This document shows positions 4,363-34,251 of a stretch of 64,000 nt of DNA, piece after piece (position 1 is the first letter of the stretch; the number at the start of each line of letters is the position of its first letter). A program made the position numbers and the translations under genes. This DNA is from Gemmatimonadaceae bacterium (GTDB lineage: Bacteria > Gemmatimonadota > Gemmatimonadetes > Gemmatimonadales > Gemmatimonadaceae), in contig JACVCD010000025.1 of NCBI GenBank assembly GCA_016742275.1, positions 1 to 64,000 on the forward strand, written 5' to 3'. The notes under the pieces are model-generated. The model was not told the DNA's origin. It did no database searches and saw nothing but the letters and a program-made list of their open reading frames with translations.

Positions 4363-4385
4363 TCCGCGTACGTGGCGCACCTGTC

Positions 4386-4624
4386 GCGTCACGCTCAAGA
4401 CCGATGGCGCGAGCACGGTGCATCGACCCACTAGTGAGGTGCCACTCACCGGCGAGATCCGCCGCGACGGTGTGTTCTTCACGTACTCTATCGTCTATAA
4501 CGACAGCCCGCTCGCGATGAATGTGGCGGCCAAGGTGACGGAGTCGAAGATGACGGTATCGATCGCATTCGCCGGACAGATGCAGGAAGCGTTGACGGCA
4601 ACGCGGGTGCCCGCAAAGCCCTGA
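4386..4624 (+). pseudogene. Truncated copy of small secreted-protein gene
   Basis: This stretch reads as the last ~75 residues (TLKTDGA, then EVPLTGEIRRD and YSIVYNDSPLAMNV to the stop) of the protein encoded intact at 9327-9686. Over the final 187 nt I count 11 mismatches, 7 of them silent, so the two copies are about 94% identical. The 5' half with the signal peptide is missing and the sequence changes at about 4380 to the island DNA ending with the HEPN-like gene. A small in-frame deletion is also seen near 4412. Best read as a 3' fragment cut off by insertion of the island or by recombination between copies. Confidence 0.8.
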
Positions 4625-4996
4625 GCATGTCCGCCGCCTATGGCGTACTTCACGTCCGCACCTTGAGCAGTGGCGGATACGAGCTTGCCACCTCGCTGGC
4701 CGGACCAAGGGCACCTCGCGAGGCTTGTCGTAGCGCGCGTGCCGCGATTGTCACGACAGATGCACCCATTCTATGGGGAGCCCTGTCAACCCTCGCCATT
4801 CCTACGTTTGCCGAATGTGTGTTGCATGCGCGAGACGGCGCGGCAGGTTCCTTGCGCTGAACAGCCGAGATGATGGGTAACAGAAAAACCCAGCAACATG
4901 GGTAACACTTTTCAGTCATCCAGTGAAGCGAAAGTCGCGTTCATCGGCGCCGTTCTCCCGCGGCCAGTCTCCGCCCAAGACATCACCGACCTCGCA
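4625..4996. other. Intergenic stretch without a convincing gene
   Basis: No ORF here has a recognisable domain or ribosome binding site. The only structure seen is a direct repeat of ATGGGTAACA at 4872-4881 and 4899-4908, the second followed by CTTTTCAGTC, which is reminiscent of IS21-type element ends. The rest is probably degraded DNA between the truncated gene copies. Confidence 0.5.
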
Positions 4997-19904: not shown

Positions 19905-20108
19905 ATGTCCAAGCCGACTGATATTCGCCCCGATGCGAAGCGCCTTGTCGAGCAGCTGCCGGCTGATGCCAGCTGGGACGATCTCGCATATGAGGTCTAT
20001 GTGCGTCAGGCGATCGAGCAGGGTGTCGCCGATGCGGACGGTGGCCGGTTGGTCGAGCATGATACGGCTCTTGCCAGAGTTCGCGCGAGAATCCGCCGCG
20101 CGTCGTGA
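19905..20108 (+). CDS. Antitoxin of ParE/RelE-type pair
   Basis: 67 aa. The sequence DDLAYEVYVRQAIEQGVADAD followed by GRLVEH and a charged tail is typical of the small antitoxins that precede ParE/RelE toxins. A helix-rich N-terminus probably binds DNA and the C-terminus the toxin. ATG 19905 is preceded by GAGAG. The stop overlaps the toxin start by one base (TGATG). Confidence 0.82.
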   Translation: MSKPTDIRPDAKRLVEQLPADASWDDLAYEVYVRQAIEQGVADADGGRLVEHDTALARVRARIRRAS

Positions 20109-20401
20109 TGCTGCCGCTCTTCTGGACAGAGCGGGCCGTTGCACATTTGGAAGCGATCGTCGACTACTACAGTATCACGTCTCCCGTTTATGCGGAGAGC
20201 ATAGTCGCGCGTATTGACCACCGATTGCAGTTGCTTCGGCGTCATCCTGAACTCGGCAAGATGGCGATCGAGATTGGTGATCCGATGATTCGCGAGGTGG
20301 TAGTGTCGCCGTATCGGGTCTTCTACCGACCGTCTGCTGATGCGATTGAGATTCTGGCCATTGTGCACGAACGGCGGCATTTACCTGCGGCGATGGAGTA
20401 G
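20108..20401 (+). CDS. ParE/RelE-superfamily toxin
   Basis: 97 aa. The fold is shown by WTERAVAHLEAIVDYYS at the N-terminus, SIVARIDHRLQLLRRHPELG in the middle and VVSPYRVFYRPSADAIEILAIVHERR at the end, the usual order of a ParE-type toxin (the last strand with an Arg-rich end). ParE relatives poison gyrase while RelE relatives cut mRNA; sequence alone does not decide. Start ATG 20108, alternatively GTG 20105 in the same frame. The pair with the antitoxin is complete and looks intact. Confidence 0.85.
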   Translation: MLPLFWTERAVAHLEAIVDYYSITSPVYAESIVARIDHRLQLLRRHPELGKMAIEIGDPMIREVVVSPYRVFYRPSADAIEILAIVHERRHLPAAME

Positions 20402-20625
20402 GCGGGCCCGCAGTGTCTCCTGGTCCATGAGGAGCGACACTACATGTGGGAAGTAGCCACACCGTTGGTCGAGAATGGCAAACCCGTGTGTAAGGTTGGC
20501 GCACCGCACCCCCAAGCCATCAATCTCATCCACAGGGTGCTCCGCTGCATCAAGCTCTCTGTTGTTCACAAAACGCCGGACGGAGCTATCGTGGGGTGTG
20601 CATCGTTCCCTTTGAAAGGCAGAGC

Positions 20626-22701
20626 ATGACACCGACTCCCCCAAAATCCGCTGAGCCGACCACTGATGCTCGTTCCGGGCGTCGTGTGGCCAATGTGCTA
20701 TGGAATATCATCGGGGGCCTGTTCGTCTGGCTCCTGATCATGGCTGCCTATCAGGGCGGCTGGAGCACGACCTCGAGTGCATTCATCGGCGTCATGCTAC
20801 TCGTGAGCTTTGGCGGGATGCTGGTGGGTATGGGATCGCGATTTTTGCATCGACCGATGGAGGTTGTGGCTGGTGTCATGATGTTGGCGGCGCCGGCGTG
20901 GACGTATTTCGCGGGAACGTATCGGTCATGGCCGCAGGCGCTCTGGGATGTGCTGGGCATCGCCGTTGGTGCGCTCGCTGCGTTACTCGTAGAGCGGGGA
21001 TGGCAAGCCCATCGCGCGCGACGTGTGCCGTCGCCTGTTGTTACTGAAGGAAGATTACGCGACGAACTGCGGCCGATCGGCTATCTGATCGCGGCGTGGG
21101 TCGGCATCACTGTGGTGACGTTGCTCCGGCCGTCACTGCTGCCAAGTGATCCACAGCGTTTTGCTGTGATCGATGTTTCGCGTTCGATTGCTGCTGGTGA
21201 GGCTCAAGCGTTTACAGGCTTGCGTGTGGGCATGGCGCTCTCTGGTGGTGGATATCGCGCGGCCGTGTTTCATAGCGGCACGTTGCACGCGCTCGAGCGG
21301 CTCGGTGTTCGCGTCAATCACCTGAGCACCGTTTCAGGTGGATCGATCATTGGCAGCTACTACGCCATTGGTGGCGATCCCGTCGCCTTCAAGGACGCGG
21401 TGGCGGAAGGACGGTTCAATCTCAAGCGTGAGCTGCTGCTGGCGCACAATGCCGTGCGACTGCCATTCCCGATACGAGTGCCAGGTATTGGCGTGCGTTT
21501 GTTTCCGTGGTACGAGTACTCGCGTCGCGATGTGCAGGCGGGCATGCTCGACCGCCTGTTGTTGGACGGGCGGGCGCATAGCGCAGCTCCAGTACCGCAG
21601 GCACCCAATCTCATTGTGAATGCCACGGATCTCACGTTCGGGCTCATTGTCGGCTTTCTGCCTGACGGCATTCTCGTGCAGGGGCCGGATGGTGATGTCG
21701 GTGTATACCGCGGTGCGCGCTATCAGCCGGACGCGTCGTTTTCACTTGCGGAGCGTGTGTCCATTTCCGGCGCGTTCCCGCTCGCGTTTCCTTCAACCGG
21801 CCTGGGGGCGCGTGTCGAACCATTTGGTGCGAGTGGTCGAGGAAAGCGTCCGCTGCAATTGGTTGATGGTGGTGTTGCGGACAACTCTGGTCGCGAAACG
21901 CTTCTCAATGCAAATGCCGTGGCGTGCGACAGTGCGCCGTGCAGCGATTCGACGCATACCGACACACGTTTTGTGAGCGACGTGATGCTGGTCTCCGATG
22001 GTGGCGCAATCTTCGGTGTGAACGGCGAATACGTCGGCATTGCCCAGCTGTCGCGCGCCGTTGATGTGGGTGGTGCGCGCAATGGATTGAGCGTCGGTCG
22101 ATCAAAGAGCACGCCGACCGTGCAGTTCTCGGCGCAGGAAGCCTATCTCAATCCGGGGATGCAGTTCCGGTTGTACCAGGATCCCGATTCGGTGAATCCA
22201 TCCGATGCCAGTAAGCAGTGGTTTGTGCGTTTCGATCCACGCGATGGGTATCCCGATGCGGTGCTCACGGCGATCACGGATCTGCTCCCGGATTCGACCT
22301 ACCCCAAGGTGCGCACGGCTCTGACGGCGTATCGAAGCGCGCGGAGTAGCGTCGGTGTGCAGGACGAGCGGCGTTGGGGCTACTGGTTGCCTCGGATGGC
22401 GACCGACGGGAATTGTGATGCAGAGCGTGCGAGTGGGCCCAATGCTACCGAGCTGCAGGGGCTGGCGGGCATCTGTGAGGCTGCCGAACTGCGGCGTGCA
22501 TTTACCGCCGAGCTGCGGGTGTTGCTGGAAGCGTTTCGGGCTACGTCGACACTGGAAGACCAGCTGGGGCGCGTGCGGACGGAGCAGTTGTTTCGGCTCG
22601 GCCAATTGCTCGTGTATCGGGACTGGCCGCGCATGCGAGATGCATCGCAGCAGGCACAGTGCATTCGAACGTCACGCGCGGAGTGCCCGAAAATTCGGTG
22701 A
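20626..22701 (+). CDS. Patatin-like phospholipase with membrane domain
   Basis: 691 aa. The first 190 residues carry about five membrane helices (LWNIIGGLFVWLLIMAAY, MLLVSFGGMLVGMG, and others). The catalytic part follows: oxyanion loop ALSGGGYRAAVFHSG (about residues 202-216), nucleophile elbow VSGGSIIGSYY with Ser in a GGS context (about 239-249), and the second catalytic residue in VDGGVADNSG (about 412-421). Patatins hydrolyse ester bonds of lipids; the membrane part should place the active site at the inner membrane. ATG 20626 follows GGCAGAG. No partner gene is linked. Confidence 0.88.
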   Translation: MTPTPPKSAEPTTDARSGRRVANVLWNIIGGLFVWLLIMAAYQGGWSTTSSAFIGVMLLVSFGGMLVGMGSRFLHRPMEVVAGVMMLAAPAWTYFAGTYRSWPQALWDVLGIAVGALAALLVERGWQAHRARRVPSPVVTEGRLRDELRPIGYLIAAWVGITVVTLLRPSLLPSDPQRFAVIDVSRSIAAGEAQAFTGLRVGMALSGGGYRAAVFHSGTLHALERLGVRVNHLSTVSGGSIIGSYYAIGGDPVAFKDAVAEGRFNLKRELLLAHNAVRLPFPIRVPGIGVRLFPWYEYSRRDVQAGMLDRLLLDGRAHSAAPVPQAPNLIVNATDLTFGLIVGFLPDGILVQGPDGDVGVYRGARYQPDASFSLAERVSISGAFPLAFPSTGLGARVEPFGASGRGKRPLQLVDGGVADNSGRETLLNANAVACDSAPCSDSTHTDTRFVSDVMLVSDGGAIFGVNGEYVGIAQLSRAVDVGGARNGLSVGRSKSTPTVQFSAQEAYLNPGMQFRLYQDPDSVNPSDASKQWFVRFDPRDGYPDAVLTAITDLLPDSTYPKVRTALTAYRSARSSVGVQDERRWGYWLPRMATDGNCDAERASGPNATELQGLAGICEAAELRRAFTAELRVLLEAFRATSTLEDQLGRVRTEQLFRLGQLLVYRDWPRMRDASQQAQCIRTSRAECPKIR

Positions 22702-22797
22702 GCCTCGCCGCGGGATTCCTGCGCGTGTCCGGGTACGGACTCACCCGGCTTGTGGTCGGGCATGAGTAATTACTCCCACCCCGGCTCGGGCTCGACG

Positions 22798-23574
22798 ATG
22801 AAATCCCTGGCAACCCCTCGAATTCTGCTCATGGCGGCGCTGGTGACCGCCTCTCCAGTGGCCGCACAAACCCTGACCTACCAGGGCAACCACACCGCTG
22901 GAACGACGTGCTCGTCCAAGAGCTCCAGTGTCGCTCCCGGAGTCAATCTCGGCTGCGTGATGTACGACAACATCACCGTGGGTGGTGATGGTTGGAACGT
23001 GACCGGACTGTTCGGAAACTTCTATCAGGCGGATGTCGAAGGCATGGCGCCGTGGACGTCGGCCTTCTGGGAAATCCGAACCGGCATGGGGGAAGGAAAT
23101 GCGGGCACGCTCGTGTACGGAGGTGCTTCGGCCATTGCGTCCGCCACTCATGTCGCGACGGGGCGGTCGTTCACAACATCCAGCGCAACATTCGACGAGT
23201 ATCTCGCCACGATCGCGCTTCCAGAATTTTTCCTGGCGCCCGGTACGTACTGGCTCGGTATTGCCCCCGTCGTGATCGAAACCGCCGCGGTTCACCTTGG
23301 TGCCTATGCGTCCTGGACGGGAACGTCGGCATCGGGCGGTATCAACAGTCAGGCGGACAACGTCGGCATTTCGTGGATCAACGGCTCCAATAACTACGTT
23401 GTGCAGAGCCACGATTTCTCGTATGGAGTACTCGGCACGCTGGCGCAGAGTGGCGGTCCTGGTAACGGTAATCCGGGAGAGAATCCGGGCGTTCCCGTTT
23501 CCGAACCGCCAGCAATGACTCTACTCGCCGCTGGTTTGATGGCGATCGTGGGCATGCGGCGTCGCAAGCGCTGA
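22798..23574 (+). CDS. PEP-CTERM sorting-domain exported protein
   Basis: 258 aa. A signal peptide (LMAALVTASPVAAQ) starts at ATG 22798. The C-terminus VSEPPAMTLLAAGLMAIVGM followed by RRRKR is a PEP-CTERM sorting signal (motif, membrane helix, Arg-rich end), normally cut and sorted by an exosortase. The motif here is SEPP rather than the usual PEP. The mature part is rich in Gly, Ser, Thr and Asn (SSNSSKSS-type stretches) and is not recognised. A strong hairpin terminator follows. Confidence 0.85.
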   Translation: MKSLATPRILLMAALVTASPVAAQTLTYQGNHTAGTTCSSKSSSVAPGVNLGCVMYDNITVGGDGWNVTGLFGNFYQADVEGMAPWTSAFWEIRTGMGEGNAGTLVYGGASAIASATHVATGRSFTTSSATFDEYLATIALPEFFLAPGTYWLGIAPVVIETAAVHLGAYASWTGTSASGGINSQADNVGISWINGSNNYVVQSHDFSYGVLGTLAQSGGPGNGNPGENPGVPVSEPPAMTLLAAGLMAIVGMRRRKR

Positions 23575-23670: not shown

Positions 23671-24237
23671 ATGCCTACCCCTGCCTTTTGGCGCCAGTGG
23701 CACCGCTGGATCGGCGCTCCAGCTGCTCTCTTTCTCGCATTCGCGGCATTCACCGGTGTCATAGTGGCCGGTGTCGAATTCTTCGGTGAAGACGAAGCCA
23801 CGCGCGAAGCCAATCGCAAACTGGTCAGCGCCGTCACGACGAGTTCGGCGTCCAGTGCATGGAGTGGCTCACTCGATCAGGCGCTTGTGGTTGCCGCGAA
23901 GGAGGCACCCAATGCGCCAATCGACAAAGTCGCTATTGAGCTCAAGGGTACGGCACCCGTCATCACACTCTATCTCGGCGCGCCAACCGGCGGTGAGGAT
24001 CGGCGACTGGTGTTTGACGCGCGCACCGGTGCCTTCCTCAAGTCCGCCGAATACGCAGACAAACCGTTCATCAATCGCGTGCACTCTGGCGAAGCCTTTG
24101 GCGACGGTGGGCTCGTCTTCGCGATGGTGTGGGGACTCGCTCTGCTCGCTCTCACTGTTTCAGGTTTCTTGTTGTACTGGCGACTGGCAGCCGCGAACAA
24201 GCAGGGGCGGACGGGTCTCAAGCGGTGGTTCTTTTGA
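23671..24237 (+). CDS. PepSY-type membrane protein
   Basis: 188 aa. N-terminal helix (IGAPAALFLAFAAFTGVIVAG) preceded by WRQWHRWIG, a periplasmic PepSY-like domain (KVAIELKGTAPVITLYLG, DRRLVFDARTGAFL) and a second helix (VFAMVWGLALLALTVSGFLL) ending in a basic tail. The HRW-IG start and the INRVHSGEAFG segment with His before the last helix are typical of the PepSY-associated membrane family, often linked to iron uptake or reductases. No iron genes are adjacent here. GTG or other starts are less likely than ATG 23671. Confidence 0.82.
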   Translation: MPTPAFWRQWHRWIGAPAALFLAFAAFTGVIVAGVEFFGEDEATREANRKLVSAVTTSSASSAWSGSLDQALVVAAKEAPNAPIDKVAIELKGTAPVITLYLGAPTGGEDRRLVFDARTGAFLKSAEYADKPFINRVHSGEAFGDGGLVFAMVWGLALLALTVSGFLLYWRLAAANKQGRTGLKRWFF

Positions 24238-24241
24238 TACG

Positions 24242-24991
24242 CTAGCGCCCATTCCCCACCGCGAAGCTCATCTCAATCTGCTGCAGCTGCGGTGAGACCT
24301 GATTGAATTCGTCCATGGGCGCGCTCATCACGAAGAGCCACGCCTGGCCGCCGCCTGACACTGCGGCGATGCGCAGCAGTGATTCCACGCCGCGCGGATT
24401 CTGTCCACGCAACAACATGTACGATCCGGGGGCGCCGCTCAGCATCAACTGACCCTGCGTGACCACACGCATACCACGCCACTGACGACTGTACTGGTCG
24501 CCCATCATGGCCACGATGCGATCACCAGTCATGCGCGGATCGAACGGAGCCAGCAATGCATATGCATTGCCGTTTCGCACTTCGAGATTGCCTTCCTGTG
24601 CCGATGCCTGCCATCCGGCGGGAACAGTGAGTTCGTAACGCCCCTGCGGATCGCGATACCACTGCCCGTTGTTCGGACCGTTCTGCTGGTACGCGTCCTG
24701 GCGACTCGGCGCGATGGGCATGGACGGCTGCGGACCATACGACTGTGGTTGCTGATACTGCGGTTGTTGGTACTGGGGCTGCTGATTTTGCAATGGTTGA
24801 TACTGCGACGGCTGGTATTGCTGCGGCGGACCGTAGCCGGGCACCGCGTTCTGAGCGATGGCCGAATTGTCCTGCTGCTGGGGCACCGCGGTTCCACGAA
24901 TATCCTGAATGCCGTCGTACAGAGCATATACGCCGAGGAGACCGGCCACGGCCCTGAACCAGACGGAACGGAAGATCGGTGGGACGTTCAT
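24242..24991 (-). CDS. Membrane-anchored protein with Gln/Pro linker
   Basis: 249 aa. ATG 24991 follows GAGAGG; a membrane helix (FRAVAGLLGVYALYDGI) is followed by a Gln/Pro/Tyr-rich linker of about 80 residues made of repeated QPQYQ units, then a globular domain (RYELTVPAGWQASAQ, then VVTQGQLMLSGAPGS and SAPMDEFNQVSPQLQQIEMS) that resembles DcrB/PsbP-like domains of outer-face proteins. It is divergent from the protease gene at 25187, which has the same layout of helix, Gln/Pro linker and domain. Function unknown. Confidence 0.75.
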   Translation of the reverse strand: MNVPPIFRSVWFRAVAGLLGVYALYDGIQDIRGTAVPQQQDNSAIAQNAVPGYGPPQQYQPSQYQPLQNQQPQYQQPQYQQPQSYGPQPSMPIAPSRQDAYQQNGPNNGQWYRDPQGRYELTVPAGWQASAQEGNLEVRNGNAYALLAPFDPRMTGDRIVAMMGDQYSRQWRGMRVVTQGQLMLSGAPGSYMLLRGQNPRGVESLLRIAAVSGGGQAWLFVMSAPMDEFNQVSPQLQQIEMSFAVGNGR

Positions 24992-25186
24992 GAGGCCTCT
25001 CTCGAGCGGCGCGATGCGCGTGACAGTCTGATGGCGGATGTGTGTCGCGGACGGGCTGCGACATCTCATAGGGCGCAGGAAGCCCACCCTGGGGATCACG
25101 GGCAACGATGATCCCGACCGTATGGGATCCACGCTCTCTCAGGTATCGCGTGTGTTCGCGCTCTCTCTGGTCCGTGGAGTTCCGTC

Positions 25187-26008
25187 ATGTACAGTCTGCT
25201 GCGTCGTCCAGCTGTCCTATTTGTCGTGCTCATTGGTGTTGCCATTGCCGGAGGCTTCGTCATGCGTGCGCGCGAACGAGCGGTAATGGCGCAGATGTTT
25301 CCCTACAGCACGCCGGAAGCGCAGCAGGCACTGCAGGCGGCGATTGATCCGACGCAATCGTACCAGACGCCAGTGGCGTATCAGCAGTCTCCTCAGTCCG
25401 ATGTGCCGCCGGTTGCTCCGCCCAGCGTTGCACCAAACGCTTTCCCGAACACAGCGGGAATGCAGATCATTGGCATCCCGAGTGAAGCACTGGATTTCAC
25501 GTATTCATCGCAACGCAATTCGATGTGGTGCTGGGCGGCATCCATTCAGATGGTGCTGCAGTACCACGGCATTCGCGCAGAACAGCAGGACATTGTGGCG
25601 CGCACCTTTGGACCCGACGCGCAGGGCAATTTGCCCAATCAGCCGGGTAGTCTGCGCGCCATCACGGCCAATCTCAACAACTTCAATGTGGATCGGGCGG
25701 GCACCACCTATCAGGTGGAATCGATCTTCGGCGAAGGGGCGCCGCCGGTGGACTTGCTGCTGGACGAAATGGACCGTCGCGAGCCGATCATCATCGGCTA
25801 CAAGGCGAGCCCCGATATGGGGCACGCGGTGGTCATCACGGGTGTGGTGTACAGTCAGACACCGCAGGGCAATGTGATTCACAAGATCATCGTGCGCGAT
25901 CCGTGGCCGAGTTCAGAGAATCGCGCCACGAATGGTCGCGTCGAGTACGAGGCGGGCGAGTTCGCACCGAAAATTCAGGGCTATTGGCGGATCCGCGTAC
26001 GGCAGTAG
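25187..26008 (+). CDS. Membrane-anchored papain-like cysteine protease
   Basis: 273 aa. One N-terminal helix (PAVLFVVLIGVAIAGGFVM), a Gln/Pro-rich linker up to about residue 95, and a papain-like C39/C70-type domain. The catalytic Cys115 is in SMWCWAAS, His213 in DMGHAVVITG and Asp238 in VRDPW; Gln in SSQRNS may form the oxyanion hole. AvrRpt2 and bacteriocin-processing enzymes share this layout, but no Gly-Gly substrate is visible nearby. ATG 25187 is preceded by GTGGAG. It is first in a run leading to the zinc-ribbon, M48-like and acidic proteins, so it may process or control them (inference). Confidence 0.85.
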   Translation: MYSLLRRPAVLFVVLIGVAIAGGFVMRARERAVMAQMFPYSTPEAQQALQAAIDPTQSYQTPVAYQQSPQSDVPPVAPPSVAPNAFPNTAGMQIIGIPSEALDFTYSSQRNSMWCWAASIQMVLQYHGIRAEQQDIVARTFGPDAQGNLPNQPGSLRAITANLNNFNVDRAGTTYQVESIFGEGAPPVDLLLDEMDRREPIIIGYKASPDMGHAVVITGVVYSQTPQGNVIHKIIVRDPWPSSENRATNGRVEYEAGEFAPKIQGYWRIRVRQ

Positions 26009-26122
26009 GCGCCGTACACGGCGATCCCAATGCCGGCTGATCCCGGCTTCAACGATTTCGCGCTCTAAAGTCAGCCCACTACGCGCACTTCAGCAGCGTT
26101 CACCCGTTTCGGTTCTGACATC

Positions 26123-27091
26123 ATGAGCGCCACCGACACTGCTACTCCCGCACTCGCCTGCACCGCATGCAACACCGTCAATGCAGTGGCCGCGCGATTC
26201 TGTTCAGGATGTGGCACGACGTTGTCCGGGAGCGCGTCCAGTGGACTACCAAACAGCGGTTTGCCAAACTCGGCACCGCCGGTTGGTGTACCACTCCCGC
26301 CTCGCCCGCCACTCGTGCCGCAGCTCAATGGGGCTGTCAGTGGCATGATGAATAGCGCGCTGGGTAGCGGAGGCGGTGAAGGCGTGGTGCAGGCGGCCTT
26401 TCCTCTGGATGCCAGTACGGCGCTCAGCGCAGTGGGTCATGCGGTGACGTCAAACAATGGCCAGGTGAAGTTCGTTCAGCCGCCGACGTCGATGACATTC
26501 GAAACCACCAAGCGTGCGATCGGACTGACCATCCGCTACGAAGGGCTGGTTCAGGTGGCGTCCATGAATGCGCAGCAATCGGCCATTCGTGTGCAGTTGC
26601 AGCCGGTGAAAGGCACGCTCACTCCCGTGTTCTTCGTTGGCGCAATTGCGAGTCTGTTCATGATGTTCACATGGTATCTCACGCTCGGACTGGGACTGCT
26701 TGGGCTGCTCTTTGGCATCGTGGCCACCGCTGCGCAGTATCACTCGCTGGCAACAGCAACACCGCGCAGCATGGCGGAGAAGATCTTGGCGGCCATGTCC
26801 AACGGCGCTCAGGCTATGCCGACATCGGAGGAATCGAAGTCCGGTGCCGGTTCATGGATGGGTAAGCTCACGCAGCCACCAGCGTTCGTAGCGAATCTGG
26901 TGAATACTGCGGCGGCAAAGCCTGCGGTGCCGGTTGTACATCCCGCTACAGCGCCTGGTACAACACCCGTAGCAGCGACTGAGGCCACCATCTTTGAGCA
27001 ACTGACACAACTCGGCAAACTGCGTGATTCCGGCATCCTGACACCACAGGAGTTCGATCACAAGAAAGCCGAGTTGCTGAGCCGGTTGTGA
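26123..27091 (+). CDS. Zinc-ribbon, membrane and SHOCT-domain protein
   Basis: 322 aa. An N-terminal zinc ribbon (C13, C16, C27, C30; ACTACNTVN and RFCSGCG) is followed by a Pro/Ser-rich linker, a soluble domain (ALSAVGHAVTSNNGQVKFVQ) and a hairpin of two membrane helices (VFFVGAIASLFMMFTWYLTL, GLGLLGLLFGIVATAA). The C-terminus (EQLTQLGKLRDSGILTPQEF to KKAELLSRL) is a SHOCT domain, a short motif used for oligomer formation. GTGA overlap with the next gene (27088) shows coupling. Role unknown; probably a scaffold on the inner membrane. Confidence 0.8.
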   Translation: MSATDTATPALACTACNTVNAVAARFCSGCGTTLSGSASSGLPNSGLPNSAPPVGVPLPPRPPLVPQLNGAVSGMMNSALGSGGGEGVVQAAFPLDASTALSAVGHAVTSNNGQVKFVQPPTSMTFETTKRAIGLTIRYEGLVQVASMNAQQSAIRVQLQPVKGTLTPVFFVGAIASLFMMFTWYLTLGLGLLGLLFGIVATAAQYHSLATATPRSMAEKILAAMSNGAQAMPTSEESKSGAGSWMGKLTQPPAFVANLVNTAAAKPAVPVVHPATAPGTTPVAATEATIFEQLTQLGKLRDSGILTPQEFDHKKAELLSRL

Positions 27092-28407
27092 ACGGAATTC
27101 CGGTCTTCTCGGTGCCAGATTTCGGTGTGCAGTTCGCCGAGGTGCCATCGCCGTTTGATGCGGCGTTTGGTGCTTCGGTCAACACGCCGGCTAGTACGTT
27201 TGCCGCGGCGCCATGCACAACCTGCGGTGGAAACGGAGCCACATTGCCGCCGGATCGCGTGTTCTGCGGCACGTGTCGATGGCTGCGTCCGCTGAATGAA
27301 GGCTACGTACTTCCGGTTGAGAGTTTTCTGTGGCGGCTCGATGCGGACGCCATGAACGTGCTGCGTTCACTCGGTCCGCTCACCATGGCCGCCCGCGCCG
27401 TCTCCGAACGGGTTGGGCGTCCATGGTTTGAAGCATCGGTGAATGGACTCCGGCTCGGTGAACAGCAGCTGCCTGACATCTTTGCGCTGGCCATTCGTGC
27501 GGCCCGCACACTGGCGCTGCCATACATGCCGGAGATCTACATCTCCGGTGAGCAGATGTGGGATGCCAATACACTTGGCACCGACACCAATGCGTTCATC
27601 GTGCTTGGCAGTGTGCTCATCAACTTCAAGGAAGATGAGCTGCTATTCGTGTTGGGGCGTGAGATGGGGCGCGTGCGCGCTGGACATGCACTCTGGCGCA
27701 CGGTGACGCAGTTGCTCACAGGTCGTACGCGGCATCGCTCCATTCTTGGCGATGGTGTGCTGCGACTCATCAATCCGGCCAAGCTCGCTGAAAGCGCACT
27801 CGATGCGCCACTCATGGCATGGTCGCGTCATTCGGAAATCACAGCCGACCACGCCGGCATGCTCTGTGTGCCCAACGTCGATATCGCACGCCGGGTGCTG
27901 ACCACATGGACGCTCAAATCGTTCCCGCTGCAGTCGCGCATCAATGCTGCTGCTTGGCGCGAACAGGAAGCGTCGGTGGGATCGTTGACACAGGTGGCCG
28001 AATGGACGTTGTCGAATGCACCGTATCTTGCCGGACGACTCAGACTGCTCGATGAATTCGCCAATGGCGAGCAGTGGGGTGGTTGGCGGCGGGTCATCGA
28101 ACATTGGATGCCGCCTGCGGTACCGGCGCCTGCAGCTACGGGAAACGCAGCGCGTGCTCCTGCTAGCGCACCACCGCCGGATCCCAACACCATCCGACTC
28201 GTGTGCCCCAAGTGCAACGACGGAATGCGCATTCCGCGCTCAGCACTCGCTGGCGATCAGCCGGTGAATGTGCGATGCCCGAACGCGACATGTCGGACGA
28301 TCGTCACCGTTACACCACGGCCGGCGTCAAACGCGGCGCCAGTCTCTGCGCCAGTCCCTGTGCCAGCGGCCAAGACACCTGACCCCGCGCAACATGCGGA
28401 GGGTTAA
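27088..28407 (+). CDS. Degenerate M48-type protease with zinc ribbons
   Basis: 439 aa. It aligns with the M48 metallopeptidase core: MPEIYISGEQMWDANTLGTD, DELLFVLGREMGRVRAGHAL, and HSEITADHAGML. In active enzymes the second motif is HELGH; here both zinc-binding His are Arg (R191, R195), while Glu192 and the third-ligand region E250/D254 remain. So zinc binding and hydrolysis are probably lost. It also has an N-terminal zinc ribbon (C43, C46, C60, C63) and a C-terminal one (LVCPKCNDGM, VRCPNATC). Start GTG 27088 overlaps the upstream gene. No signal peptide. It is likely a structural or regulatory pseudoenzyme. Confidence 0.8.
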   Translation: MNGIPVFSVPDFGVQFAEVPSPFDAAFGASVNTPASTFAAAPCTTCGGNGATLPPDRVFCGTCRWLRPLNEGYVLPVESFLWRLDADAMNVLRSLGPLTMAARAVSERVGRPWFEASVNGLRLGEQQLPDIFALAIRAARTLALPYMPEIYISGEQMWDANTLGTDTNAFIVLGSVLINFKEDELLFVLGREMGRVRAGHALWRTVTQLLTGRTRHRSILGDGVLRLINPAKLAESALDAPLMAWSRHSEITADHAGMLCVPNVDIARRVLTTWTLKSFPLQSRINAAAWREQEASVGSLTQVAEWTLSNAPYLAGRLRLLDEFANGEQWGGWRRVIEHWMPPAVPAPAATGNAARAPASAPPPDPNTIRLVCPKCNDGMRIPRSALAGDQPVNVRCPNATCRTIVTVTPRPASNAAPVSAPVPVPAAKTPDPAQHAEG

Positions 28408-28412
28408 CAGAA

Positions 28413-28706
28413 ATGGATACGTCTTCTGACTATTCGCTGCACATCGCACCTGGCAGGGCGACACAGGCGATTGATGTGTCGATGACCACAGACCCTCGTG
28501 CGTCGCGCGACTCGGTCACGTCCGCGCAGGACGATACGCATCCCGTTGGCGACGCCAGTACCTCCACGCGCGATGACCCAGACGACAATGCCGTGGAAGC
28601 GACGGCAGATACCGATGAAACCGCCGAAGAAGCCGAAGTCGTGAATGCCGTACCGGATACTGCAACTGACGATAGTGCAGCATCGGATACGGCCGAGAGC
28701 ACCTGA
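28413..28706 (+). CDS. Small acidic, lysine-free disordered protein
   Basis: 97 aa without lysine or cysteine, dominated by Asp, Thr, Ser, Ala and Glu (TADTDETAEEAE, TATDDSAASDTAEST). No structured domain is evident. It lies 5 nt after the degenerate M48 gene and 14 nt before the next acidic gene, so it is in the same operon. The composition would suit a multi-site Ser/Thr phosphoacceptor or a flexible partner; this is inference. No homologue can be named. Confidence 0.65.
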   Translation: MDTSSDYSLHIAPGRATQAIDVSMTTDPRASRDSVTSAQDDTHPVGDASTSTRDDPDDNAVEATADTDETAEEAEVVNAVPDTATDDSAASDTAEST

Positions 28707-28720
28707 CACCGGAGTGAAGT

Positions 28721-29296
28721 ATGAGTGACGTCGATACGAAACTCGCAGAAACGGCTGATGCGGAAGACATCGCCGCAGTCGAGGCGCAGCTGGCCGGTAT
28801 GTCGAAGCATGCGGCCGAGCAAGTGGAGCGTCATCTCGACGAGATGCCGGCGAGTGTCACGATTGAAGAGGTCCAGCACGAAATTGATCGTGCCAACGCA
28901 GCGGCTGAAGCGGTGCGGGAAGCGCAGGAGCTGCGCCATGAGCAGGTCCAGGAAATCCTGCAGGGTGATCTGAGTCGTGCTCACGATCTCGCTGGCGAAC
29001 GCGAGTATCAGGTTCAGATCGCCGAGGATCAGGGCGATTCCGTTGATCATCCGCTGATAGAGGCACGCGCCGATGTGGCGGCGCTGAGTTGGGCCGCACA
29101 CGAGCAGTCCATTGCGGACGATCACGCCGCGTCGGCTGCGGCCTACGACGCGGTCGGTGATCATGAACATGCGGAACAATACGGTGACATGGCGGATGAC
29201 CATGCCGAGAGCGCATCGGATCATGCGGACACGGCGACGCACGACGACGCCAGTGATAGCGGCAGTGATGTCGATACGACGCAAACCGACGGTTGA
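28721..29296 (+). CDS. Acidic helical protein with His/Asp-rich tail
   Basis: 191 aa. A helical, coiled-coil-like body (EAQLAGMSKHAAEQVERHLD, EAVREAQELRHEQVQEIL) is followed by a C-terminal tail of Asp, His, Ala and Ser (DDHAASAAAYDAVGDHEHAE, SASDHADTATHDD). Apart from two lysines in the first 29 residues it is lysine-free. A His/Asp tail could bind divalent metal ions. RBS GGAG is 5 nt or so upstream of ATG 28721. It belongs to the run of three acidic genes; family not recognised. Confidence 0.68.
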   Translation: MSDVDTKLAETADAEDIAAVEAQLAGMSKHAAEQVERHLDEMPASVTIEEVQHEIDRANAAAEAVREAQELRHEQVQEILQGDLSRAHDLAGEREYQVQIAEDQGDSVDHPLIEARADVAALSWAAHEQSIADDHAASAAAYDAVGDHEHAEQYGDMADDHAESASDHADTATHDDASDSGSDVDTTQTDG

Positions 29297-29323
29297 TTTC
29301 TACTTCACTCGGAGGACGGAACG

Positions 29324-29641
29324 ATGGCTGACGGCATGATGGGTGATATCGGCAAGGTGGTGGGTGAAGTGAACGGGATCGTCGTACCAGGACTGGGGGA
29401 AGCGATCGGTCCGGCCCTTCGCGCCGTTCAGGAGGCATCGAAAGAGCTCGGTGAAGGCATGCAGGGTCCCATGCATACGCTCATCGAGGGCGTGTTGGAC
29501 ATCGAAACGCATGTGGAGATGATTGACGAGACCACAGAAATGCCCGATGGCACCATTGTGGCCATGGCCGATCATCCAACGCACGATGATTCGAGCTCAG
29601 ACGCCGCGTCAGACGATACTCACACGGCGACCGAGGCCTGA
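29324..29641 (+). CDS. Small acidic protein, unknown
   Basis: 105 aa. The first part (MADGMMGDIGKVVGEVNGIV, then GEAIGPALRAVQEASKELGE) is a likely amphipathic helix pair, the last part an acidic, Ser/Thr/Asp-rich tail (THDDSSSDAASDDTHTATEA) without lysine. GGAGG 6-8 nt before ATG 29324 is a strong Shine-Dalgarno. Last gene of the acidic trio. Its end overlaps the convergent gene at 29620 by about 22 nt. Confidence 0.66.
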   Translation: MADGMMGDIGKVVGEVNGIVVPGLGEAIGPALRAVQEASKELGEGMQGPMHTLIEGVLDIETHVEMIDETTEMPDGTIVAMADHPTHDDSSSDAASDDTHTATEA

Positions 29642-30138
29642 GGCGTCGCACGACGGTTTACACACCAGGCATTGATGGTGGCGGAGGCTTCGGTCCACGG
29701 AGCCTCCATAGCCACGATGTCCCTACGCAACGGCAGTGTGCTGCCGTCATCGAAACAGGCATACAGACTCCACGTGGGATAACGGTAGCCGTAGAGCCGG
29801 TGACGGATTTCGCCTGATTGCACAAGGTCGACACTCACCAGGCTCTGCAACGCGCGCGTGACACGCTTGGGGCGTCGCAAGAGTCGTGGCATGGAAAACT
29901 GCACCACGCCGTCATCGTCATTCAGCTGTACCGTGATGGGTCGTAGCACGCGACGGCCAGCTGTAAAGGCGAGCAGTGCCACCGCACCGAACGATGGCAA
30001 AACGGCCGGCTCCGTTCTGAGAACTTCGGGTCGGAAGATCACAACCACGAGTACCAGCACGAAGGGCAGCATGATGAGCCCAACGATGATCCAGATCAGC
30101 CAGTATGCGCTGCTCGGTGGACGGATCTGAACGGTCAT
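29620..30138 (-). CDS. Membrane protein with PH-like domain
   Basis: 172 aa. Two N-terminal helices (WLIWIIVGLIMLPFVLVLVV and SFGAVALLAFTAG) are followed by a beta-rich domain (ITVQLNDDDGVVQFSMPRLL, RALQSLVSVDLVQS, YPTWSLYACFDDGSTLPL) like bacterial PH or DUF membrane domains. ATG 30138 is preferred because the helix begins soon after it. It faces the acidic gene cluster. Function unknown. Confidence 0.7.
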   Translation of the reverse strand: MTVQIRPPSSAYWLIWIIVGLIMLPFVLVLVVVIFRPEVLRTEPAVLPSFGAVALLAFTAGRRVLRPITVQLNDDDGVVQFSMPRLLRRPKRVTRALQSLVSVDLVQSGEIRHRLYGYRYPTWSLYACFDDGSTLPLRRDIVAMEAPWTEASATINAWCVNRRATPQASVAV

Positions 30139-30288
30139 CTGTGCCACAGAGACTCCCCGTGTCGGTGTGATGGTCTGCCTTTGCCCCATACAGAGAAGGC
30201 GAGCCTGGGACGGACTTGGGATCACCGCCGTGATCTGGCGCGGCTCGTGAGTGCGCTCTATAGGCAAGCCACCAACATCGAGGATTTT

Positions 30289-30702
30289 GTGTCGCTCACT
30301 CGTTCCACATTTGTGCTCGTCTCCATGTGCATGCTCTCCGCATGCACGCCCGCTGATCGCTCTGATTCGAGTCAGCTCGTCAGCGCTACTGCCGGACGGG
30401 TGGTTGTCGGGATCGGGGTGCGCGATGTTCGTCCGATTGACTTGCAGCGCACCGGCGGCAACGACATTCGTGGTGCGTATATCGGCACCATCATGCCGGG
30501 GAGTCCGGCCGAACGCGTGGGTCTTCGTGTTGGTGACGTCGTGCTCGAGGCCAATCGCACGCCAATCATGCGTTCCCAGGATCTGCAGCAGCTCATTGCG
30601 GCGCAGCAGGCCGGTGCGGTGCTGGAGTTGATCGTGCAGCGCTCAGGGCAGGTCGTGCGCGTTTCCGTCCAGGCGCGTCAGGAGAGTGGTCGTATCGGCT
30701 GA
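30289..30702 (+). CDS. PDZ-domain lipoprotein
   Basis: 137 aa. Start GTG 30289 (GAGG 5 nt upstream) gives a lipoprotein signal, TRSTFVLVSMCMLSAC. A single PDZ domain follows (RGAYIGTIMPGSPAERVGLR, VGDVVLEANRTPI, LQQLIAAQQAGAVLELIVQ), as in HtrA-type proteases but with no protease part. It should bind C-terminal peptides outside the inner membrane. The 3' end overlaps the convergent FHA gene by 25 nt. Confidence 0.82.
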   Translation: MSLTRSTFVLVSMCMLSACTPADRSDSSQLVSATAGRVVVGIGVRDVRPIDLQRTGGNDIRGAYIGTIMPGSPAERVGLRVGDVVLEANRTPIMRSQDLQQLIAAQQAGAVLELIVQRSGQVVRVSVQARQESGRIG

Positions 30703-31070
30703 GCAATTGGTTGATCACCAATAGCTGCCAGAGAAGCTTCCACTTCGAGTTGCACCTCAAAGACCGGGCCGCCCCGTCCAAGTTGCACCTGATCACCGCT
30801 GCGCAGCTGGGCCGGTCCTTCCATACGCTGACCATTGATCCAGGTGCCATTGCGGCTCTGCAAATCCGCGAGCTGCATGGCCATCGGCTGGCCTGGGTCC
30901 CAGTCGAGCCGCGCGTGATGCCGGCCTACAATGCCATCGCGTCGCGCATCGAAACGCACTGCCGCCGAAGGCGCGCGGCCAAAGATAATCTCGCGATGTG
31001 CGCCGAGTTCGACGACATCGATTTCGGTTTCCCGACTTCCGCTCACATGGCGAATGATAAGCCGCACCAT
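30678..31070 (-). CDS. FHA-domain phosphothreonine-binding protein
   Basis: 130 aa, a single forkhead-associated domain: REIIFGRAPSAAVRF, then VGRHHARLDWD and LQSRNGTWINGQRM, with the conserved Gly-Arg, Ser/His and Asn-Gly residues of FHA domains. It binds phosphothreonine peptides made by Ser/Thr kinases. It lies directly downstream, on the same strand, of the kinase at 31160-33652 and its sigma factor, so it is the obvious reader of that kinase's output. Confidence 0.87.
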   Translation of the reverse strand: MVRLIIRHVSGSRETEIDVVELGAHREIIFGRAPSAAVRFDARRDGIVGRHHARLDWDPGQPMAMQLADLQSRNGTWINGQRMEGPAQLRSGDQVQLGRGGPVFEVQLEVEASLAAIGDQPIAQPIRPLS

Positions 31071-31159: not shown

Positions 31160-33652
31160 TCAGCGCGGTGTGCGCTTCCACTTCCCGTAGAGCACGGCGA
31201 GACGTGCCTGATTCATCTTCACACGCGGGTTCTCCGCACCGAGGATTGCCTTGAGTGCGCTGTCCGCGTGCAACAGCAGAGCTTCTGCTCGGGGATAGTC
31301 GCCGGTCATGGCATAGTGCTCGCCGAGCACAGACTGTGAGCTGGCCACGAGCCAACTGTTCTCCCCGGCGTATTTGCGCCGCAGTGCAAGACTCTCTTCG
31401 AGCGCTGCGCGACCCTCGGCGTGTCGGCCCAGCTGCGTCAGACTGCGTCCCACTGTCTGCAGCGAAGCGGCGATAGCCGGATGACTTTCGGGAAGCGAAC
31501 GTCCCCTGAGTGTCACAATCTCCGTCGCAAGATTGCGTGCTTCGTCGTAGCGCTTCTGGTCGAAGAGGAATGCTGCATAGTTCATGGCTGTAAACGCATA
31601 GTCCGGGTGTTCAGCGCCCAGCAGCTTGCGCCGTGCGGCCACGACACTCGCGTACAGAGAATCCGCTTCGACCGTCTTGCCCTCGAAGTCCAGCACACTC
31701 GCCAATGAGTTTTCCGCGTCGGCCACGATGGGATGCAGACCCGGATGATTGGAACGAACGATGCGCAGTACCTCGCGGTGCAATGATTCCGCTTCGGCCA
31801 GGCGACCTTGCTCACCCACGCCGACAGCCACGTTGCCGAGCGAATAAGCGTATGAGTCACTGGTGGGGCCAAAGATCCGACGCTTTTCCTCCAGGGCGCT
31901 TCTGTGGAATCGCACAGCGGTTGACTCATCACCGCGTGCATGCGCCACGCTGCCGAGATTGCTCATGATCACAGCGGTCATGGAGTCTGTTGATGATGCT
32001 GATGCCCGCTCCCTGAGACGCAGCGCGTGCGTGAACAACGATTCCGCACGAGGCAATGCACCTCGCGTCAGTTCGACGCCACCGAGAGAGTTGAGCACCA
32101 TCGCCATTGACGGCCCTGTGTTGCCCTCGCGTTGCTGCACCAGGGTCCGGGCGTGCTGGAAATGTTTCTCGGCGTCATCAAGTCGGCCAAGCGACTGGAA
32201 ACTGTTGGCGATCACCATCTCGAGTTCTTCGCGAACGTCGATGTTGCCGACATCTTCGTCGTCCACCCTTCGGGCGGCTGCTTCCAGTACTTCGGAGACC
32301 GGAACATCACGACCGCCGGTGGCTGGTTTCACACTCTCCAGTAGTGCTCGCAAGAAACCAGCGACTTCCGCGCTCTTCACTTGCTCGGCGCGTGCGAGTC
32401 TCGCCTGACGTGTTGTGGTGATCACACCGCCGAGCAGGGCAAGCAGAATGGCTGCCGCCGCGACTACGGTTCCACGATAGCGCCGAGCAAACCGGCGCGC
32501 GCGATACCAGCGTTCCGGGCGGGCCGTGATTGGTAGCCCCGTCAGGTGCCGACGAATGTCTTCGTCAAGCGCGTCCACGGTGGAGTAGCGCCGCTCTGGC
32601 TCGCGTTGCAATGCCTTGCGGACAATGACATCTATGTCGCCGCGAAGACGACGGCGCAATCTTTCGGCGTTGCGCTCACTACGCAGTGCGGCCGCTTGAT
32701 CGGTCGCTACGCTACTCGACGACGGAGCATCGTCTTGTAGAATGCGCTGCTCCACCGGCAGTTCGGAGTCTGCGCGCACGAACGGACGGCGTCCTGCAAC
32801 CAATTCATAGAGCACCACTCCGAGCGCGTACACATCGGACGCGGTAGTCGGTGCATCGCCGCGAATCTGTTCGGGGCTTGCGTATTCCGGCGTAAACGCA
32901 CGGGTGCTCCCTTCGGTTGCTGGTAAACCATCGTCGTCGGCACCGGCCAGCAGTCGTGCAATACCGAAGTCGAGCAGCTTCACTGACCCGTCGCCCGTGA
33001 CCAGAATATTTCCGGGCTTGAGGTCGCGATGCACGATCAACCGTCCGTGCGCATGGCGCACGGCGGCACACACCTGGCGGAACAACTGCAATCGATCGCT
33101 TACCGACAGTGCACGGGCATCGCACCAGGTCGTGAAGGGTTCGCCTTCTACGAACTCCATGACGAGGAACGGTTGTCCGGCTGGTGTGACACCGCCATCG
33201 AGCAAGGTGGCGATGTTGCGATGTTCGAGCGAAGCCAGGATCTGCCGTTCGCGGCGGAAGCGTGCGAGCGTCAGGTCGGTGGCAATTGCGCCACGCACCA
33301 CCTTGATCGCGACGCGTTTGCGATACTGATCGTCTGCGCGGATGGCTTCGTACACCGCGCCCATGCCGCCGCGGCCCACCAGGCGTTGTGTCTCGTACGG
33401 GCCAATGCGTCCGCGCGATTCGTCCAACGCATCACCGACTGCATCATCTGGTGTCGTGCCCGCTACGAGATGATCTATCTGCAGACGCGCGTCTGTGCGA
33501 TCGTCATGGGCGAGCAGGGCGCGCAATTCACGAGCCAGCGCTGGGTCGTCGGCATCGTGCGCCGCGAGCCAGGCCTCGCGTTTCGCCGGTGGCAACTCGC
33601 TCACTTCGTCAAACAGCTGCCGCAAACGGCGAAGCGAGTCGGCGTCACTCAT
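31160..33652 (-). CDS. Ser/Thr protein kinase with TPR sensor region
   Basis: 830 aa. A Hanks-type kinase domain (about residues 85-350): glycine loop VGRGGMGAVYEA (92-103), Lys117 in RVAIKVV, VHRDLKPGNILV (about 205-216) and LLDFGIARLL (about 220-229). A membrane helix (TVVAAAAILLALLGGVITTT, about 400) separates it from a C-terminal TPR region (repeats like LNSLGGVELTRGALPRAESL). TPRs probably sense or recruit partners outside the membrane. The first 80 residues match the sigma-linked lead (LRQLFDEVSELPPAKREAWL) of this family. The stop of the upstream sigma factor overlaps the start by ATGA, so the two are co-expressed. Confidence 0.92.
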   Translation of the reverse strand: MSDADSLRRLRQLFDEVSELPPAKREAWLAAHDADDPALARELRALLAHDDRTDARLQIDHLVAGTTPDDAVGDALDESRGRIGPYETQRLVGRGGMGAVYEAIRADDQYRKRVAIKVVRGAIATDLTLARFRRERQILASLEHRNIATLLDGGVTPAGQPFLVMEFVEGEPFTTWCDARALSVSDRLQLFRQVCAAVRHAHGRLIVHRDLKPGNILVTGDGSVKLLDFGIARLLAGADDDGLPATEGSTRAFTPEYASPEQIRGDAPTTASDVYALGVVLYELVAGRRPFVRADSELPVEQRILQDDAPSSSSVATDQAAALRSERNAERLRRRLRGDIDVIVRKALQREPERRYSTVDALDEDIRRHLTGLPITARPERWYRARRFARRYRGTVVAAAAILLALLGGVITTTRQARLARAEQVKSAEVAGFLRALLESVKPATGGRDVPVSEVLEAAARRVDDEDVGNIDVREELEMVIANSFQSLGRLDDAEKHFQHARTLVQQREGNTGPSMAMVLNSLGGVELTRGALPRAESLFTHALRLRERASASSTDSMTAVIMSNLGSVAHARGDESTAVRFHRSALEEKRRIFGPTSDSYAYSLGNVAVGVGEQGRLAEAESLHREVLRIVRSNHPGLHPIVADAENSLASVLDFEGKTVEADSLYASVVAARRKLLGAEHPDYAFTAMNYAAFLFDQKRYDEARNLATEIVTLRGRSLPESHPAIAASLQTVGRSLTQLGRHAEGRAALEESLALRRKYAGENSWLVASSQSVLGEHYAMTGDYPRAEALLLHADSALKAILGAENPRVKMNQARLAVLYGKWKRTPR

Positions 33653-34251
33653 GGCGAACCTGTGGCGCTCAGGCGCTCGGCCAGCCAGGCACGAGCAAAG
33701 GCCCAGTCACGCTTAACAGTGGGCGTGGAGACTCCCAGAATCCGCGCGATTTCTTCCACGCCAAGCCCGGCAAAGACACGCAGGTCCACCACCTGAGCAC
33801 AGCGTGCATCCGCAGCGGCCAGTTCAACCAGTGCATCTTCGAGCGCTAGAATATCGAGTGCGCGATCATCGTGGTGATGTCGCTCGTCGGCCGCATTGGC
33901 GCCAAGGGCATCGTCGAAAGTGACAAGCAATGCTCCGCCGCGTTTGGCGGCGGCCCGGGATCTGGCATGGTCGACGAGCACGTGTCGCATAGCGCGCGAA
34001 GCCGTGCGAAGGAGGTGGGCACGGTCTTCGAAGTCCGCATCGTCCACCAGAATCCGGAGCAGTGCTTCGTGCAAGAGCGCAGTCGGCTGCAACGTGTGCG
34101 ATTCGCGCTCGTGCCGCATGTGGCGAGCGGCAATGTCACGCAGCTCGTCGTAGAGCAGCGGAAGAATGCGATCATATGCCGCCCGGTCCCCGTTCCGTGC
34201 GTCGCGCAGTAGGACAGTGATTTCGTGCTCGCGCGAAGCGCTGGCGTCCAT
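33649..34251 (-). CDS. ECF sigma factor, kinase-linked type
   Basis: 200 aa sigma-70 factor of the ECF group (TIGR02999-like) that is normally encoded next to a PknB-type kinase. Region 2 is EITVLLRDARNGDRAAYDRI to RHMRHERESHTLQPTALLHE, then LLRTASRAMRHVLVDHAR; region 4 is DLRVFAGLGVEEIARILGVS followed by TVKRDWAFARAWL. ATG 34251 is chosen because region 2 begins about ten residues later. No anti-sigma gene is present; regulation by phosphorylation from the overlapping kinase is the accepted idea for this group. Confidence 0.92.
   Translation of the reverse strand: MDASASREHEITVLLRDARNGDRAAYDRILPLLYDELRDIAARHMRHERESHTLQPTALLHEALLRILVDDADFEDRAHLLRTASRAMRHVLVDHARSRAAAKRGGALLVTFDDALGANAADERHHHDDRALDILALEDALVELAAADARCAQVVDLRVFAGLGVEEIARILGVSTPTVKRDWAFARAWLAERLSATGSP

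Follow-up and report, generated by a model that had tools for sequence, protein, structure and literature searches.

A four-gene cassette with a predicted M48 pseudoprotease recurs in two bacterial phyla and may be linked to kinase-sigma factor control of envelope protein handling

In a Gemmatimonadaceae bacterium, a run of co-directional genes encodes a papain-like protease, a zinc-ribbon membrane protein, a degenerate M48 peptidase and three small acidic proteins. This raises the questions of whether these genes form a unit and which process such a unit might serve. The window analyzed here is a stretch of 64,000 nucleotides (assembly GCA_016742275.1, contig JACVCD010000025.1, positions 1 to 64,000) from an assembly of 4.57 Mb in 33 contigs, labelled G000. 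A preliminary description of this DNA had placed six co-directional genes from position 25187 onwards and a divergent gene at 24991, and all of these open reading frames were found at those places (Table 1). The small gaps reported between the genes were also seen (5, 14 and 27 bp), but only a single GTGA overlap exists, between B and C, and A and B are separated by 114 bp.

Table 1. Genes of the conserved block in the window
Gene	Position	Strand	Product and remarks
nDIV	24242..24991	-	membrane-anchored protein; Q/P linker followed by a PsbP-like domain at the C-terminus; left end of the block common to the window and G018
A	25187..26008	+	TM-anchored papain-like (C70/C39-like) cysteine protease; satellite of the core
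B	26123..27091	+	first core gene; zinc-ribbon protein with an alpha/beta domain weakly matching BamC/START, two TM helices and a SHOCT domain
C	27088..28407	+	second core gene; predicted M48 pseudoprotease, HExxH replaced by REMGR, a zinc ribbon at either end
D	28413..28706	+	third core position; small, disordered and acidic protein
E	28721..29296	+	fourth core gene; acidic helical bundle whose disordered tail contains Thr and ends in VDTTQTDG
F	29324..29641	+	accessory gene that evolves fast; small, acidic product with an amphipathic N-terminus
H	30181..30702	+	envelope PDZ protein, lipoprotein-like in the window and TM-anchored in G018; conserved from ~30304
I	30678..31070	-	FHA-domain protein
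J	31160..33652	-	transmembrane Ser/Thr kinase, HRD and DFG intact, C-terminal TPR region
ECF sigma factor (PF07638)	33649..34251	-	QPTA motif in region 2.2; 4-bp overlap with kinase start

The gene order of the window is found again in G018 (locus L038), in which nDIV, A-B-C-D-E-F and the PDZ, FHA and kinase genes are arranged as in the window and a partial sigma factor gene lies at the contig end. The conserved block runs rightwards beyond F through the PDZ, FHA, kinase and sigma factor genes to about 34251; the preliminary description had included neither these linked genes nor the occurrence of the cassette in another phylum. According to the comparison of proteins between both loci, the shared block extends from nDIV to the kinase, plus the sigma factor, with nothing in common beyond. 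The dN/dS ratios between the window and G018 are about 0.1-0.26 where computable, with an uncertain value of about 0.45 for F, and D and F are the least conserved members of the window cassette. The gene order in G018 and this purifying selection, together with the recurrence of the core order in Alphaproteobacteria, argue that the gene cluster of the window is not a product of chance. An Rfam scan of 20-35 kb of the window gave no match, and a scan for promoters and terminators gave scores no better than those of shuffled sequences. A predicted membrane open reading frame on the minus strand (29620-30267), which shares 22 bp with the end of F, is missing from the otherwise syntenic G018 block. 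Left of nDIV, the plus strand of the window encodes a ParE-family toxin (20105-20401; Pfam 3.5e-16), a large membrane protein with a patatin-like phospholipase domain (20596-22701) and a secreted protein with a probable, sub-threshold PEP-CTERM sorting signal (22750-23574), which adjoins a PepSY-TM protein (23671-24237).

Conservation of the gene order across the Gemmatimonadota, as envisaged in the preliminary description, was not observed. Only two of 30 genus members, the source of the window and G018, carry the cassette, and among the 29 other species A, C and E were detected only in G018. In a sample of 298 genomes of Gemmatimonadota, C was present in the window's own genome and in none of the other 297. 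A scan of GTDB contigs revealed C in alphaproteobacterial MAGs labelled Hyphomonadaceae, Caulobacteraceae and Terricaulis, with 54-56% identity over most of its length. In the family of one of these MAGs, 10 of 60 genomes were positive for C, including G352 and G353 with 58% identity to the query; a class-wide search of 385 genomes returned C only from the query genome itself. In the nine complete alphaproteobacterial loci, the identity of C is 54-57%, and the cassette occupies about five chromosomal settings.

Altogether, 11 loci from two phyla contain a core of four genes in the order B-C-D or F'-E, namely the window, L038, seven Terricaulis-type loci (L043-L049) and two further alphaproteobacterial loci, L061 of G352 and L062 of G353. 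Position 3 is held by D in the window, G018 and the Terricaulis-type group and by F' in L061 and L062. The core genes are joined by 1-17 bp or by 4-bp overlaps in most of the 11 loci; in the complete Terricaulis-type loci, the joints of B-C-D-E measure +1 to +3, -4 and +3 to +17 bp. In L061 and L062, the genes that follow B-C-F'-E lie on the opposite strand and encode a papain-like protease with a TM anchor, a Ser/Thr kinase and an ECF sigma factor. Thus, the core order is kept in relatives rather than scattered, and for the four-gene core a chance cluster is rejected, the same order being found across phyla. This supports the proposal of a so far undescribed module that is conserved and located at the membrane, its conserved unit being four genes instead of six or seven. 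A candidate homolog of E in G021 (E 3.5e-4) was dismissed, as it lies in another frame of a phosphatase-like open reading frame.

The surroundings of the core differ among the alphaproteobacterial copies. Protein comparison between L061 and L062 showed a shared block only from a P/Q-linker lipoprotein to the sigma factor, and L045, L047 and L048 have only the four core genes in common. L045 and L049 have a long flanking chromosomal context in common, which indicates that the cassette is resident in this group, while other copies are located at different places. In L047, a serine recombinase (4160-4765), a possible vehicle for spread, is encoded about 2.3 kb upstream of the cassette. A prophage or plasmid origin was rejected, as phages and viral contigs contained no cassette copies and plasmids yielded only distant M48 matches with at most 32% identity.

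The patchy distribution, the transfer between phyla and the several insertion sites would also suit an accessory defence or conflict module, a mobile cassette triggered by the kinase and directed against competitors or phage. The recombinase near the L047 copy and the scores of the kinase on PD-T4-6 profiles could be read in the same way. This explanation is nevertheless clearly unlikely: A to F have no PADLOC match at E 0.01 and the kinase matches are generic, the core has no toxin-like domain and no close copies on phages, plasmids or viral contigs, and five alphaproteobacterial copies occupy one stable chromosomal context.

The most distinctive member of the core is C, which matches Peptidase_M48 (PF01435) with 41.0 bits at a cut-off of 20.3 (2e-10, Pfam) and had been described as a degenerate M48 protein with zinc ribbons at both ends, a description confirmed here. 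The first histidine of the HExxH motif is replaced by arginine in all 11 C proteins, with the pattern R[E/Q]MG[H/R], whereas HExxH is intact in all 27 M48 paralogs from Gemmatimonadota that were checked. The C proteins of the window, G018, L061 and L062 have REMGR, so that the second histidine is also gone, and retain the third-ligand glutamate (EITAD). The seven Terricaulis-type proteins retain the second histidine (REMGH or RQMGH), and their third-ligand glutamate is changed to alanine (SAITAD versus SEITAD). As the first histidine is lost together with either the second one or the third-ligand glutamate in each lineage, at least two of the three zinc ligands are missing everywhere. Judged by these sequences, C is an M48 pseudoprotease that has lost the catalytic zinc site in every copy. 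The reading that C is a divergent active peptidase, whose rearranged site would still hold a metal for structure or catalysis, could draw on the catalytic glutamate, which is retained in 10 of 11 proteins, on the following histidine in the Terricaulis-type group and on the EITAD glutamate in the four others; given the arginine in place of the first histidine in every protein and the further ligand lost in each lineage, it is highly improbable.

In phylogenetic analysis, the C proteins are separated with full support from the HExxH paralogs, to which they show 22-34% identity with an alignable core. The dN/dS ratio of C between the window and G018 is about 0.11, which indicates that the dead protein is maintained. 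The zinc-ribbon cysteines are kept; the window protein has one N-terminal CxxC..CxxC ribbon and a C-terminal ribbon, and relatives have an extra N-terminal ribbon. C has no TM helices. In the literature searched, neither a description of an M48 pseudoprotease nor a paper joining SHOCT, zinc ribbon and M48 was found.

B is a zinc-ribbon membrane protein with a SHOCT tail, as had been proposed; the SHOCT domain matches at 4e-8 and the zinc ribbon is sub-threshold (Pfam). A model of B (AlphaFold, 11-sequence alignment) consists of the zinc ribbon, an alpha/beta domain with weak resemblance to BamC-N/START folds, two long helices including the TM segments, and SHOCT. Proteins with SHOCT domains and zinc ribbons in other systems have been predicted to build complexes at the inner membrane face (PMC11237479), and one SHOCT domain did not oligomerize in experiment (PMC3581485). 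The description of D, E and F as small, acidic and lysine-poor proved correct, with pI values of 4.05, 4.14 and 4.05 and 0, 2 and 2 lysines, respectively; none of them belongs to a Pfam or NCBIfam family above threshold. The model of E, obtained in the same way, is a helical bundle of high confidence (pLDDT 86) whose tail is disordered (residues 176-191, below 50). The motif [V/I]DT[T/S] is located at the extreme C-terminus of 9 of the 11 E proteins, the rest of the tail being variable. Searches with the fold of E gave no Foldseek match at E 0.001, and Z scores of up to 11 with VIA fell on helical bundles and were uninformative as to relatives. Residues ~55-107 of E gave a weak profile match to SonA, a borosin RiPP precursor (E 0.002, 21 bits, 53 helical residues). 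No core peptide in common with SonA was seen and no methyltransferase was recognized among the cassette genes; the match is no more than a lead and probably reflects helical convergence.

The protease A of the window matches Peptidase_C70 (4e-11, 43.3 bits, cut-off 19) and C39_2 (1e-7) in Pfam, and its motifs QxxxxWCWA (QRNSMWCWA), GHAV(V) and RDP are intact, comprising a Cys/His/Asp triad with the preceding Gln. This agrees with its initial identification as a membrane-anchored papain-like protease. The protease of L061 and L062 also retains Q, C, H and D, and A shows 30% identity to the protease of the other phylum over 140 residues only. In the L061/L062 protein, a basic N-terminus ahead of the TM helix and additional conserved cysteines suggest a periplasmic location of the catalytic domain. 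A protease of this type is encoded beside the core in four of the 11 loci, a distant relative in the case of L061 and L062, and is missing there in the other seven, all alphaproteobacterial. A pairing of an active with a dead protease, which had been taken to suggest proteolytic or assembly control, therefore does not define the module.

With the protease in focus, the cassette could be interpreted as an export or maturation module similar to a peptide-secretion or RiPP system, in which A cleaves D, E and F, and B and C form a membrane docking complex. In support, the C39/C70-like protease adjoins the small proteins in four loci, and the SonA match of E might be added. However, a protease next to the core is missing in seven loci, the neighborhood showed neither an ABC exporter nor a modifying enzyme, and the 21-bit match covers 53 helical residues without a common core peptide, which makes this interpretation very unlikely.

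The divergent gene nDIV had been considered a design twin of the protease gene; it carries a PsbP-like domain instead, sub-threshold in the window and above cut-off in the G018 homolog, with which the nDIV protein shares 46% identity. Just upstream of B, L062 (11784-12518, minus strand) and L061 (~6859-7536, plus strand) encode a lipoprotein with a long Pro/Gln linker, which resembles nDIV in its plan of anchor, Q/P linker and small domain. A comparison of the two gave no significant match; they have a similar FNQ-containing end, but the hhalign probability is 0.4%.

In four loci, those of both Gemmatimonadaceae and of G352 and G353, genes for a transmembrane Ser/Thr kinase and for an ECF sigma factor carrying a QPT[A/E] motif lie within about 4 kb of the core. 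Strong PF07638 sigma factors number six in the window genome, two in G018 and one each in G352, G353, G321 and G322, and none was found in the other five cassette carriers tested. The distance to the cassette is about 3.3 kb for the single-copy sigma factor of G352 and G353 and about 4 kb in the window genome, where it concerns one of six. The single sigma factor of G321 and G322 lies away from the cassette and has its own kinase. The sigma factors beside the cassette and those of G321 and G322 all have the region 2.2 motif QPT[A/E/D]L, with QPTA in the window and G018, QPTE in L061 and L062 and QPTD in G321 and G322. At this site in ECF43 sigma factors, a phosphorylated Thr takes the place of acidic residues (PMC13147305, PMC8999054), a QTTA-like motif replacing the acidic DxxD (PMC13147305). 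The kinase gene adjoins the sigma factor gene in L061. In the kinases of the window and L061, a TM segment follows the kinase domain, and the C-terminal part, in the window the TPR region, should accordingly be periplasm-facing.

The sigma factor of L061 has 61% identity to the alphaproteobacterial one of G321 and 41% to that of the window, versus about 55% for C across the two phyla. The sigma factor genes thus appear typical of their hosts, and the adjacency of core and sigma factor was probably gained twice, independently in the two phyla. By gene density, the chances of the two adjacencies are estimated at about 1% and about 0.2%, with the neighbor chosen post hoc, and this estimate is moderate evidence for the kinase-sigma factor link. 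An FHA ortholog (69%) is present in the genus only in G018, further FHA matches having 34-43% identity, and the orthologs of A, C, E and FHA are all confined to the same two of 30 genus members.

Alternatively, the kinase-sigma factor pair and the protease may be chance neighbors of the core, the four genes alone being a unit with the role of a housekeeping scaffold. The kinase, sigma factor and A are indeed missing from seven loci, and such pairs are frequent in the window genome with its six strong PF07638 genes. Against this, a single-copy sigma factor adjoins the cassette in G352 and G353, FHA and A follow the cassette exactly within the genus, and the adjacency recurs though the sigma factor type differs by host, so that mere coincidence is rather unlikely. 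Nevertheless, regulation is not a fixed part of the module, since seven of the 11 loci have no kinase, sigma factor or protease beside the core, and among the genomes concerned a strong PF07638 sigma factor is absent from five and encoded elsewhere in two.

Our preferred explanation, put forward tentatively, is that the four core genes B-C-D/F'-E constitute a horizontally mobile operon for a membrane-tethered, non-catalytic protein-binding complex onto which the kinase-sigma factor pair and the protease have been wired in some lineages. The order of the four-gene operon is conserved as described; complex formation, phosphorylation and a stress function are proposed here on the basis of domain content and gene neighborhood. 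B would anchor the complex on the cytoplasmic membrane face, the side on which its zinc ribbon, its alpha/beta domain and SHOCT would be located. C might bind protein clients or partners through its former substrate cleft and its ribbons without cutting them, and E and D or F' would serve as its acidic partners, the [V/I]DT[T/S] C-terminus of E being a plausible phosphorylation or docking motif. In the Gemmatimonadaceae and in G352 and G353, the transmembrane kinase may phosphorylate the Thr of the QPT[A/E] motif and thereby switch the module on, while the anchored papain-like protease, probably periplasmic, could trim an envelope substrate or sensor. The whole assembly would then represent an envelope-stress or protein-quality response. 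The cassette may thus be an undescribed, horizontally transferred system in which a SHOCT/zinc-ribbon protein holds a ribbon-flanked M48 pseudoprotease with acidic helical partners at the membrane. Its placement in two phyla, independently, next to an anchored papain-like protease and to ECF sigma factors activated by kinases would point to kinase-sigma factor-controlled envelope protein handling, likewise a tentative reading.

The component domains are already known, but the cassette is not: neither Pfam nor NCBIfam has a family for D, E or F, PADLOC lacks a model for the core, and no matching paper was found. A new multi-gene family around a dead M48 peptidase, for which no published example was found, is thereby added in two phyla. 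The family is possibly tied to sigma factor phosphorylation, a recently recognized signalling route with few known targets, and the small, expressible operon offers a handle on pseudoprotease action at bacterial membranes.

With M48 metallopeptidases of the HtpX type, whose HExxH paralogs are common in Gemmatimonadota, C shares the fold match and an alignable core, but it differs in the absence of the catalytic zinc site and of TM helices and in the zinc ribbons added at both ends. Regulatory pseudoproteases such as iRhoms, CspC and MamO are likewise protease folds under selection without catalysis; they belong to different protease clans, and no published example from M48 was found. The closest resemblance in operon composition is to PSP partner operons (PspA-PspAA with a metallopeptidase, PspAB and a SHOCT-like gene; ydjFGHL of B. 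subtilis; PMC11237479), which also combine SHOCT and zinc-ribbon membrane proteins with a peptidase-fold protein in a small operon and for which complex assembly at the inner membrane face has been suggested, as it is here for the cassette. In contrast to these, the cassette has no recognized PspA, PspC or Toastrack, and a Pfam scan at E 1 of window proteins that comprised part of the neighbors gave no match to PspA or PspC; moreover, its peptidase is predicted to be dead and has no TM helices, and E and D have no Pfam family. For the regulatory part, the ECF43/Hanks-type kinase pairs EcfP-PknT and EcfK-PknS are the nearest counterparts, in which, as in the window, a transmembrane Ser/Thr kinase gene overlaps or adjoins the ECF sigma factor gene. 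Like the cassette sigma factors, they have a Thr in the Q-x-T-x motif of region 2.2, a likeness seen in the motif and in the adjacency of the kinase gene. While the known targets of these pairs are a T6SS or polymyxin resistance, the operon linked to the kinase and sigma factor here is the pseudoprotease cassette.
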